From contig NZ_WYEU01000004.1 in the NCBI RefSeq assembly GCF_015143595.1, forward strand, positions 1-64,000: DNA of 64,000 nucleotides. Reading direction: 5' to 3'. The notes beneath the pieces are model-generated. The model had not been told where the DNA came from. It searched no databases and saw only the letters and a program-made list of their open reading frames with translations. The DNA is from Sneathiella sp. P13V-1. Its GTDB lineage: Bacteria; Pseudomonadota; Alphaproteobacteria; Sneathiellales; Sneathiellaceae. This document shows positions 26,966-30,765 of the stretch, piece after piece. Within the stretch, counting starts at the first letter, position 1. Each line of letters starts with the position of its first letter. A program made the translations under genes and the position numbers.

Positions 26966-27520
26966 ATGACAGCAATGCCCATCCTGAAAATGGGAAACCC
27001 GAAACTTAGGGAAAAGGCCCGTCCAATTGAGTTACCCATTCCCCATGAGATTCGGGATTTGGTGGAGGTGATGAAGGAGAGTATGGCAGCCGCGGGTGGT
27101 GTGGGACTGGCAGCACCGCAGATCGGTATTTCCAAGCAACTTGTGATCTTTTCGGTACCCGAAGCGCGTATGAAGCAAGAGGATGGCAATGACGCACTTG
27201 GGATAGACCAAACGGTGCTCATTAATCCTGTCATCGAGCCTTTAAGTAATGAGCAGGTGAAAGGCTGGGAAGGGTGCTTGTCTGTACCGGGGCTTAGAGG
27301 TCTCGTCCCGCGATACACCCATATCCGGTATTCTGGGTATGATCTGGATGGCAACAAAATGACAAGAGAGGCAAAAGGCTTTCATGCACGCGTTGTTCAA
27401 CATGAGTGCGACCATTTGACCGGAATATTATATCTGGAACGCATGACAGATATGACTGAACTGGTGTATGAAAGTGAAATGAAGACCTATATGGAGAACT
27501 ATGGTCTGAATAATGATTAA
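26966..27520 (+). CDS. def: Peptide deformylase
   Basis: A 184-residue metal peptidase that removes the formyl group from new proteins. All three family motifs are present: [10 protein letters not shown] at residues 45-54, EGCLSVPG with metal-binding Cys104, and QHECDH with His146, Glu147 and His150. The chain is slightly longer than E. coli Def because of an insert around 68-82. Its stop overlaps a possible upstream start of the COQ9 gene (TAATG), so the genes are likely coupled. Confidence 0.96.
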
Positions 27521-27531
27521 TGAGGTTAGAA

Positions 27532-28188
27532 ATGCTGTCTGATCAGGAACAGAGACAACGTCTGCTGGATGCGACGCTTCCCCACGTCATGTTTGATGGC
27601 TGGTCAGCGAAGGCTATGAAAGAAGCAGCTAAAGACCTTGGTGAGGATTACTTTACCTTCGAGCGCTATTTTCCGGGCGGGCCAATTGATCTGATTAGCT
27701 TCTTTGTCGAGCAGGCTGATGACAAAATGGAAGAAGAACTGATCAAGAGAGATGTTCTTTCCATGAAGATCAGGGACCGTATTACGCTCGCCGTTCGGCT
27801 TCGCCTTGAAATGTATACCCCGTACCGTGAAGAAATTCGCAAAGCACTGACCTTGCTTGCTTTGCCTCAAAATACGGCCAAAGGGATTAAACTTACTGCG
27901 GAAACTGTAAGTCGCATGTGGTACGCAACAGGCGATACCTCAACTGACTATAATTATTATACAAAACGCATGACACTTTCTGCTGTCTATAGTTCAACTC
28001 TGCTTTATTGGTTGGATGATCACTCAGAGAATTTTGAACAGACTTGGGAGTTTCTGGATCGACGTATTGAAAATGCCATGCAGTTTGAAACGGCGAAGTT
28101 CAAGGCCAAACAGTTCTTTTCAAAGAAGCCTGCTGGGCCTGATATTTTTTCTCCGGCCCGCTTTATGAGACATCTTCGGGTGCGGTAA
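27532..28188 (+). CDS. COQ9 family protein
   Basis: A 218-residue helical protein with the COQ9/TetR-like fold (LLDATLPHVMFDGWSAKAMKEAAKDLGE; later DYNYYTKRMTLSAVYSSTLLYWLDD). COQ9 proteins bind lipid and assist ubiquinone biosynthesis, presenting substrate to the COQ7 hydroxylase at the membrane. I chose the ATG at 27532 with GAGG six bases upstream; an in-frame ATG at 27520 overlaps the def stop. It sits between def and the halohydrin dehalogenase-like gene on one strand. Confidence 0.9.
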   Translation: MLSDQEQRQRLLDATLPHVMFDGWSAKAMKEAAKDLGEDYFTFERYFPGGPIDLISFFVEQADDKMEEELIKRDVLSMKIRDRITLAVRLRLEMYTPYREEIRKALTLLALPQNTAKGIKLTAETVSRMWYATGDTSTDYNYYTKRMTLSAVYSSTLLYWLDDHSENFEQTWEFLDRRIENAMQFETAKFKAKQFFSKKPAGPDIFSPARFMRHLRVR

Positions 28189-28232: not shown

Positions 28233-28964
28233 ATGCTTCAAAACAAGGTTATCCTGATTACGGATGCGACGCATTTTCTTGGAAAGCCAGGAACTTCGGT
28301 TTTAATCCGCGAAGGGGCAACTGTTTATGCACAGGATGCAAGCTTTACGAATGATGGCGCCCGCGCTGATTACGAAAAGCTGGTGCCAGGTGTTAAAACA
28401 TTAACCGAACAGATCCCGGAAGATGTGGTAGCCAAGGTTGTTGAGTTGGAAGGCCATCTTGATGTGATGGTCAACAACGACGCTTACCCTGCTGTGAAAT
28501 CTTCAATTGATGAGGCGGATGTGGAAGAGTTTCGCCGTGCTCTGGATGGCTTGCTCGTCCGTGGTTTTAGTTATGCAAAGCTCGCCAGTGCTCAGATGAA
28601 GAAGCAGGGCCACGGGAAAATCCTGTTTATCTCTTCCGCTGTTCCTAAACATGGTTTACCGAATTATTCCATGTATGTAGCGGGAAGGGGCGGTGCGAAC
28701 GCGCTGGCGGTGTCTTTGGCTAAAGAATTGGGGCCATTTGGCATCCGAGTAAATGCGTTGGCGCCAAATTTCATTGAAAGTCCGACTTATTTTCCGAAAG
28801 AACTTCTGGAAAATGAGGAAATATACAAGAAGATCACTAAGCCCATTCCCCTTGGTCGCCTAGGAAAACCTGAGGAGGCTGGTGAGTATCTTGCGTTCCT
28901 GTCCTCTGACAAATCTGATTATATCACAGGACAGGTTTTGTATTTTGCAGGTGGTTGGGCTTAA
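28233..28964 (+). CDS. Probable halohydrin dehalogenase (short-chain dehydrogenase fold)
   Basis: A 243-residue protein that would usually be named a short-chain dehydrogenase, but the cofactor motif TGxxxGxG is replaced by T10-x4-F15-x-G17 (TDATHFLG). The catalytic set is Ser135-x12-Tyr148-x3-Arg152, with Arg in place of the usual Lys. These are exactly the two published signatures that separate halohydrin dehalogenases (HheC type) from dehydrogenases. P178-N179-F180 matches the halide-pocket Pro-Asn-Tyr of HheC, and the C-terminus keeps YITGQVLYFAGG. Such enzymes convert vicinal halohydrins to epoxides, releasing halide, and can reverse this with azide, cyanide or nitrite. No epoxide hydrolase gene is adjacent. 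GGGAGG lies upstream. It probably shares an operon with def and COQ9. Confidence 0.85.
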   Translation: MLQNKVILITDATHFLGKPGTSVLIREGATVYAQDASFTNDGARADYEKLVPGVKTLTEQIPEDVVAKVVELEGHLDVMVNNDAYPAVKSSIDEADVEEFRRALDGLLVRGFSYAKLASAQMKKQGHGKILFISSAVPKHGLPNYSMYVAGRGGANALAVSLAKELGPFGIRVNALAPNFIESPTYFPKELLENEEIYKKITKPIPLGRLGKPEEAGEYLAFLSSDKSDYITGQVLYFAGGWA

Positions 28965-28980
28965 TATCAGCCCAATTCAT

Positions 28981-30069
28981 TTATGCTGTTGGCAGGGTAT
29001 CCAAGGAAAAGAGGCGCGTGACATGACCCATTTTGCGGCCGGCACGCGCTTCCGCTTTGCCGTACATATGTAGACTCATGTCTGGATGAGCTAAAATTTC
29101 CTGCCAATGTTCTACATCATCCCCGATCAAGTTGCGCATTACAGCGTTTGAGTGACGTTCTGGGTTGCCCAGTGGCAAACCCGCCGCGGCGCGAATACTT
29201 TGTTTGAACTGGCTAGTAGCGCAGGCTTCAATTGTCCAATGACCGGAATTATGGGGGCGCGGCGCCATTTCATTAACCAGAACACTCCCATCGGCGGTCA
29301 CAAACATCTCAACAGCAATCAAGCCGACAAGTTCCAGTCGATCTGCGATACGCTGAGCGAGGTCCTCGGCATGTTCGGAAACACTTTCCAAAATGTTCGC
29401 AGGGGCAAGTGTAATGTCCAGAATGTGGTTCTTGTGAATATTCTCAACCGGGACATAGCTTTGAACATTGCCGTTGATATCGCGAGCGGCAATCACAGAA
29501 ATCTCTAACTCGAACGGGACAAATCCTTCCAGAATTGAAGGTTGTTCGCCAACCTGTTTCCACGCTTCGTCAATTTCTGTCGCGCTGTCGATTTTTACCT
29601 GACCTTTGCCGTCATACCCGAAGCGGCGGGTTTTCAATATGCAGGGGGTACCAATCCGCTCAATTCCTTTTTGCAGATCTTCAAGACTTTCAACATTGCA
29701 GAATTGGGCCGTTCCAGCCCCAAGGCTATTCAGGAAAGTTTTTTCTACAAACCGGTCCTGGGTGATTTCCAGAACTTTTCTGCCAGGGCGAACTGGGACT
29801 TTGCTTTCGAGAAAACTAAGCGTTTCGCTTGGGATGTTTTCAAATTCCAAAGTGACCACATCCACATCCTCAGCAAATGCGTCGAGGGCCTGTTGGTCAG
29901 TATAGGGGGCAACGGTCATCTTTGTGCAGATTTGCGCAGCTGGCCCGTCTGCATCCTGACCAAACACATGGGTTTTGTAACCCAATTCAGCGGCAGCGAT
30001 TGCCATCATCCGTCCAAGTTGTCCATCGCCTAGAATTCCGATGGTTCCGCCAGGGGCAACTGTGGTCAT
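28981..30069 (-). CDS. purK: N5-carboxyaminoimidazole ribonucleotide synthase
   Basis: A 362-residue ATP-grasp enzyme of purine biosynthesis that converts AIR, bicarbonate and ATP to N5-CAIR. The start TIGILGDGQLGRMMAIAAAELG is diagnostic, followed by the ATP-grasp core (ILKTRRFGYDGKGQVKI; NEMAPRPHNSGHWTIEAC). It is downstream of purE by four bases, forming purEK. Confidence 0.96.
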   Translation of the reverse strand: MTTVAPGGTIGILGDGQLGRMMAIAAAELGYKTHVFGQDADGPAAQICTKMTVAPYTDQQALDAFAEDVDVVTLEFENIPSETLSFLESKVPVRPGRKVLEITQDRFVEKTFLNSLGAGTAQFCNVESLEDLQKGIERIGTPCILKTRRFGYDGKGQVKIDSATEIDEAWKQVGEQPSILEGFVPFELEISVIAARDINGNVQSYVPVENIHKNHILDITLAPANILESVSEHAEDLAQRIADRLELVGLIAVEMFVTADGSVLVNEMAPRPHNSGHWTIEACATSQFKQSIRAAAGLPLGNPERHSNAVMRNLIGDDVEHWQEILAHPDMSLHMYGKAEARAGRKMGHVTRLFSLDTLPTA

Positions 30070-30073
30070 TTAT

Positions 30074-30577
30074 TTATCCTTCAGGATTGTCGACAGGAAT
30101 TTCTGCTACAGCACTTGTTTGCTTTTCACGCCATGCGTCAATTGCTTTGGCGATCTCATCGTCATGTAATGCTAGAATTTGTGCAGCAAAGAGGGCCGCG
30201 TTGATGGCACCTGCTTTACCAATGGCCAGTGTTCCGACAGGAACCCCGCCCGGCATTTGAACGATTGAAAGAAGACTATCCATCCCTTTAAGGGCTTTGC
30301 TTTCAACTGGAACACCCAATACTGGAACAGGTGTCATTGAAGCTGTCATGCCGGGGAGGTGAGCTGCCCCACCTGCACCTGCAATAATGGCTTTCAGTCC
30401 GCGTTCCTTTGCTGACTTTGCATAGTCATATAAACGATCTGGTGTTCTATGGGCGGAGACAATTCTGCTTTCGAACTTCACACCCAATTCTTCGAGTGTG
30501 TCAGCGGCATGTTTCATGATCGGCCAGTCAGACTGACTGCCCATGATAATTCCAACATCTACTTTTTCATTTGTCAT
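30074..30577 (-). CDS. purE: N5-carboxyaminoimidazole ribonucleotide mutase
   Basis: A 167-residue enzyme that rearranges N5-CAIR to CAIR. Motifs are [10 protein letters not shown] near residue 9, [14 protein letters not shown] and [13 protein letters not shown] set the start at ATG 30577, which matches the family length; a TTG at 30595 would add six residues. Neither has a strong ribosome site. Confidence 0.95.
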
Positions 30578-30765
30578 CGCTGAAATAGGCCCCAAATCAT
30601 ATGTAATATCGGTCGCGCGGATTATATGCGGGTGCCGCTAATAATCAAGGAAAGCGTGAAAGTGACACTTTTTGTTTAAATTTTAGATTTTTGGATAGCT
30701 GTTTTGTAATTCTTTAAGAAATGCCGTACAAGATTCCGAAGATAGTATTCTTTTCAGGTTAGCTT

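Follow-up and report, generated by a model that had tools for sequence, protein, structure and literature searches.

The HHDH-type gene and its locus

In the window, the whole 64,000-nucleotide stretch of Sneathiella DNA analyzed here, an open reading frame at 28233..28964 (+) encodes an SDR-fold protein of 243 amino acids (P0001) that is predicted to be a halohydrin dehalogenase (HHDH) on the basis of the frame itself, its motifs, PDB matches, a phylogenetic tree and a structural model. The frame starts with an ATG that is immediately preceded by a purine-rich stretch, and position 28964 is the last base of the stop codon. According to two papers (PMC11976700; PMC4989007), HHDHs are defined by the motifs T-x4-F/Y-x-G and S-x12-Y-x3-R. 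The initial annotation had reported both in this frame and both are exact. The first, TDATHFLG (residues 10-17; codons 28260..28283, +), reads T10-x4-F15-x-G17 and lies where the NAD-binding glycine motif would be. The second, SAVPKHGLPNYSMYVAGR, begins at residue 135 (codons 28635..28688, +) and supplies the catalytic triad S135-x12-Y148-x3-R152, which aligns to S132/Y145/R149 of HheC. A search of the protein for the SDR cofactor motif T-G/A-x3-G/A-x-G gave no match, the SDR Y-x3-K is absent with Y148-x3-R152 standing in its place, and the NNAG-type SDR motif reads NNDA. The halide-pocket region, as located by alignment, extends from P178-N179-F180 to P188 (codons 28764..28796, +).

Upstream of the HHDH gene are a peptide deformylase-family gene, def (26966..27520, +; Pfam PF01327), and a COQ9 family gene (27520..28188, +; PF08511), as the initial annotation had named them; these two overlap by one base, and 44 bases separate the end of COQ9 from the HHDH start. 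Downstream and convergent to the HHDH gene is purK (28981..30069, -), identified by the Pfam ATP-grasp and PurK_C domains and by synteny, and purK is adjoined by purE (30074..30595, -), identified by AIRC (PF00731) and its conserved position. Each of the 20 Sneathiella loci read has purK downstream of the HHDH gene, and the sister genus has the same arrangement; 19 of these 20 were seen within 3.7-kb stretches and the twentieth (L016/L071) has two ORFs inserted. In 19 of the 20 purE follows purK, and the stretch for L018 begins inside purK. COQ9 is found upstream in 10/20 genus loci (def was seen in seven of these) as well as in the sister genus. The context that had been called unexpected is in fact an ordinary conserved locus of half the genus and of its sister genus. 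In nine other genus loci (L011-L017, L019 and L020; wider stretches L063-L071) the gene immediately upstream encodes a SulP-type anion transporter, assigned from the Pfam domains Sulfate_transp (PF00916) and STAS on the L065 copy, and in L018 the upstream neighbor is another open frame that is neither COQ9 nor SulP. The SulP pairing may reflect a link to anion transport or mere position, as the pair occurs in only 9/20 genus loci.

Both HHDH motifs are present in all 20 Sneathiella loci read (L001-L020, the locus of the window included) and in the sister-genus locus L054. The other 19 genus proteins are 65-81% identical to the window protein and the L054 protein is 48% identical; Sneathiella glossodoripedis (L024, 74%) and a Sneathiellales MAG are among the relatives at 74-79% identity. 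The host genome has a single match to the window protein, and across the order 22/25 genomes match at 1e-35. Genome G002 (91% complete) is without an HHDH match and purK was likewise not found in it, and genome G008 (98% complete) has no HHDH match and a purK terminating 294 bases short of a contig end. In genome G010 (65% complete; L134) purK and the SulP gene abut and the HHDH gene is missing. This is a real loss, which makes the gene dispensable there or in some niche. The unusual part is the deep conservation, as the HHDH gene looks like an old, vertically inherited chromosomal gene in most Sneathiella species.

The motifs are not a general property of SDR genes. Neither was found in any of 24 SDR loci of other bacteria (L025-L048). 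The host genome has 40 matches to PF13561. Apart from this gene itself, 30 of them were read and nine were not. None of the 30 carries both motifs in one frame, with two of them (L160 and L163) matching no motif pattern whatever.

Relation to known dehalogenases and SDRs

A sequence search of the PDB returned dehalogenases as its ten top matches (6a41; HheC and its variants; HheA) with E values from 1e-64 to 3e-35. These were followed by 7b73 (HheD2 by title) at 4e-29 and by the first FabG, 4nbu, at 6e-29, so that in sequence score the window protein is much nearer to HheA/HheC than to HheD2. The top match, 6a41 ('dehalogenation enzyme', 2019; E 1e-64), is the closest solved relative with 46% identity over 244 columns, and its depositors name it a 'dehalogenase'; no open paper on it was found. 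It shares both motifs and the Y-F-P pocket stretch with the window protein but has Ser in place of P178. Genomic relatives nearly identical to 6a41 (L108, L111 and L132) lack def, COQ9, purK and purE as neighbors, unlike the gene in the window.

HheC from Agrobacterium radiobacter AD1 (1pwx) is 36% identical and shares the T-x4-F-x-G motif, the S-Y-R triad and the P-N-aromatic pocket. In the alignment, F15, P178-N179-F180, P184 and F187 fall on pocket residues of HheC/HheA2. The initial annotation had matched P178-N179-F180 to the halide pocket of HheC, and this is right as to position, P175-N176-Y177, but not as to the third residue, where F replaces Y; the P-N-F form is that of HheA2. HheA and HheA2 (4z9f, 1zmo) have the same motifs and identical PNF and PTYFP stretches at 33-34% identity. 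Relative to HheC the window protein has a three-residue gap in the halide loop, and P84, F86, W139 and W192, which we take to line the HheC pocket, are not kept, being replaced by A87, K89, L142 and L192, respectively. The substrate range may therefore differ from that of HheC. Additionally, the C-terminal extension with Trp249, described as a feature of HheC in PMC4989007, is absent from the window protein.

A phylogeny had been proposed as a check on the family assignment, and in a maximum-likelihood tree of 91 rows one branch (100/100) parts 58 HHDH-like rows, the window protein included, from 33 SDR rows. The 58 rows are made up of ten Sneathiella sequences, 44 sequences of other Alphaproteobacteria (the sister genus among them) and the references 6a41, HheC, HheA and HheA2; the tree is midpoint rooted, its bootstrap is not fully settled, and subtypes B and D-G (HheB and HheD-G sequences) were left out. 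The window protein thus groups with HheA, HheC and 6a41 and away from the NAD-type SDRs. The ten Sneathiella rows cluster together (100/97), and the tree gives no firm branching order between this clade, the HheA line and the HheC line.

The second proposed check, structure prediction, was consistent with an HHDH but not decisive. The AlphaFold2 model of the window protein (pLDDT 92.3), for which 14 of the 19 rows of the input alignment were ordinary SDRs, has the SDR (Rossmann) fold. In structure comparison 6a41 (Z 35.4) and HheC (Z 32.8-33.4; 32.8 for the bromide complex 1pwx) were best, but FabG 4nbu (Z 32.0) followed closely and HheA (Z 31.4) ranked below several FabG chains. The fold does not separate an HHDH from an SDR, since FabG comes close behind HheC and above HheA. 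Classical SDRs such as FabG have the Rossmann fold and the Ser-Tyr catalytic core in common with the window protein, whereas the NAD glycine motif is theirs alone, their Lys is replaced by Arg in the window protein, and they lie on the other side of the tree. Taken together, the motifs, the PDB matches and the tree support the HHDH family, and the window gene is very probably a new Sneathiella member of this known enzyme family, its activity being predicted from sequence. Our searches of the open-access literature on this protein (Sneathiella HHDH, physiological role, natural function, proteobacterial phylogeny) found nothing, although work may be published elsewhere.

Distribution and variants beyond the order

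HHDH genes had been described as rare in the initial annotation. They are not very rare in the Alphaproteobacteria: 48/387 genomes of the class match the window protein at E 1e-30, six of them Sneathiella. Outside the order, tblastn gave 49 ORFs in 43 loci, of which 30 have both motifs, three have motif 1 only, ten have motif 2 only (two of these are cut at contig ends) and six have neither (three SDR neighbors and three tandem-pair partners). In a phylum-wide sample 2/397 genomes match at 1e-35, namely the window genome and another alphaproteobacterium.

When the neighbors in the window and SulP were compared with the 43 loci outside the order, def, COQ9, purK, purE and SulP had no match, and an FAD-oxidase protein alone matched, in two loci. 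The locus is therefore a feature of the order, and the gene is wider. Clustering of the neighbors of 44 loci showed that genes resembling recJ, sirtuin genes and alpha-glucosidase genes (identified by eye in the translations) recur in at most nine loci, and none of these was observed in the window. The largest cluster, of 32 loci, was set aside; in it the HHDH rows are mingled with other ORFs and shadow ORFs.

Several variants of the HHDH pattern were observed in other genomes. Four proteins of one alphaproteobacterial family (L098, L104, L105 and L107) have Trp in motif 1 (T-x4-W-x-G) with S-x12-Y-x3-R intact, and a search with the published motif would miss them on account of this residue. 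In L110 and L115 Ser replaces the Thr that opens motif 1, and motif 2 is intact. Tandem pairs of HHDH-like genes are found in three genomes of one genus (L120:5863-7337, L123 at 5783 and 6527, and L125 at 5647 and 6412); one member has the S-Y-R motif 2, and its partner lacks both motif 2 and the motif-1 aromatic residue. Such a pair may be an active and an inactive subunit joined in one complex. Three HheA-side relatives (L057:6720-7442, L127 and L129) have motif 1 without S-x12-Y-x3-R, and in L057 the catalytic position of the alignment is not occupied by Tyr. L096 and L100, from two genomes of one genus, have an NAD-type SDR gene adjoining the HHDH gene.

Predicted chemistry and proposed physiological role

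We consider the window protein to be a cofactor-free HHDH that falls on the family's A/C side, with a probability of roughly 0.86 as far as the enzyme chemistry is concerned. By analogy with HheC, as described in PMC4989007, Ser135 would hold the substrate hydroxyl, and Arg152 would make Tyr148 more acidic so that Tyr148 could take the hydroxyl proton. The alkoxide oxygen would then displace the neighboring halogen to give an epoxide, and the halide would leave into an anion pocket at the old nicotinamide site. In the reverse reaction, also modeled on HheC, the enzyme might open an epoxide with halide, azide, nitrite or cyanide.

Automatic annotation treats the gene as an ordinary SDR, as had been predicted. 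The Pfam match is adh_short_C2 (124 bits). Of 205 NCBIfam matches the 25 listed are all SDR models, and not one of them reaches its curated cut-off. These matches and a fold near that of FabG speak for an NAD(P)-dependent SDR oxidoreductase whose motifs have drifted, but such an enzyme would be expected neither to lack both the glycine motif and YxxxK and read NNDA for NNAG, nor to fall on the HHDH side of the 100/100 branch. With motifs and tree against it we reject this identity as highly improbable. A recently acquired pollutant-degrading gene is, if anything, more improbable still. HheA-type genes do travel, as illustrated by a plasmid of the activated-sludge isolate Microbacterium sp. J1-1 (L166:1257-10567), on which genes for DsrE, an EHN-type epoxide hydrolase, a haloalcohol dehalogenase (so annotated, and near-identical to HheA by eye) and glpK lie between two IS1634 transposase genes that share one protein accession. 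This group resembles a composite transposon for the use of haloalcohols, and the setting of the window gene is the opposite of its epoxide hydrolase-HHDH-glpK arrangement. PMC4989007 traces HheA and HheA2, in distinction from the window protein, to isolates that degrade haloalcohols or epihalohydrins. In the window no transposase was recognized by eye among the ORFs, the neighbors are conserved through the genus and its sister genus, and a search of 72,556 plasmid records gave only seven matches at E 1e-25, with a best identity of 36.1% and one annotated dehalogenase. The syntenic locus and the want of a close plasmid relative lead us to reject a recent mobile catabolic origin.

A more serious alternative accepts the HHDH chemistry and differs on the native reaction. 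In that case the protein would be a cofactor-free SDR-fold enzyme with an HHDH site and a different native reaction, such as the opening of a cell-made epoxide by a non-halide anion or another Tyr/Arg-catalyzed proton transfer, and its action on halides would be secondary. It fits an old syntenic chromosomal gene carried by 22 of the 25 genomes of the order, and a SulP-type transporter gene directly upstream in nine of 20 genus loci. It also fits the host genome, where no EHN- or LEH-type epoxide hydrolase was found (each search was positive in 1/14 control genomes), although other hydrolase types are possible; a search of the same genome with the Microbacterium epoxide hydrolase, run without a positive control, was likewise empty. 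PMC4989007 itself concedes that other physiological functions of HHDHs cannot be excluded. Against a different native reaction, the alignment shows the chief pocket residues of known HHDHs retained, and the same review reports that relatives found by their motifs and chosen for assay, a selection of 19 enzymes, had confirmed HHDH activity. The neighboring genes suggest no substrate for it. We regard this alternative as a real but minority possibility, a little behind the role proposed next.

The preferred reading, a true HHDH, is accompanied by a more tentative proposal for its role. The enzyme may have a housekeeping function in its marine alphaproteobacterial host, with natural vicinal haloalcohols or epoxides as the likeliest substrates, because the gene is old, syntenic and chromosomal and the genome gave no EHN- or LEH-type epoxide hydrolase of the kind that goes with some degradative copies. 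According to PMC4989007, from 2016, just two of the HHDH genes then known shared an operon with an epoxide hydrolase gene. That the gene has stayed at one locus speaks for steady physiological use, and the chromosomal setting points to a physiological role and not to recent pollutant degradation.

HHDHs were first known from pollutant-degrading bacteria. It is conceivable, though we would not yet call it probable, that HHDHs in Alphaproteobacteria are old physiological enzymes whose substrate is made by the cell or occurs naturally in the sea, with a possible coupling to anion handling through SulP, and that HheA and HheC are offshoots recruited for pollutant degradation. The value of HHDHs lies in epoxide chemistry, and automatic annotation overlooks the family. 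A marine genus with cultured members, in which the gene is kept at one locus in most species and has been clearly lost once, offers a route to the natural job of an HHDH.
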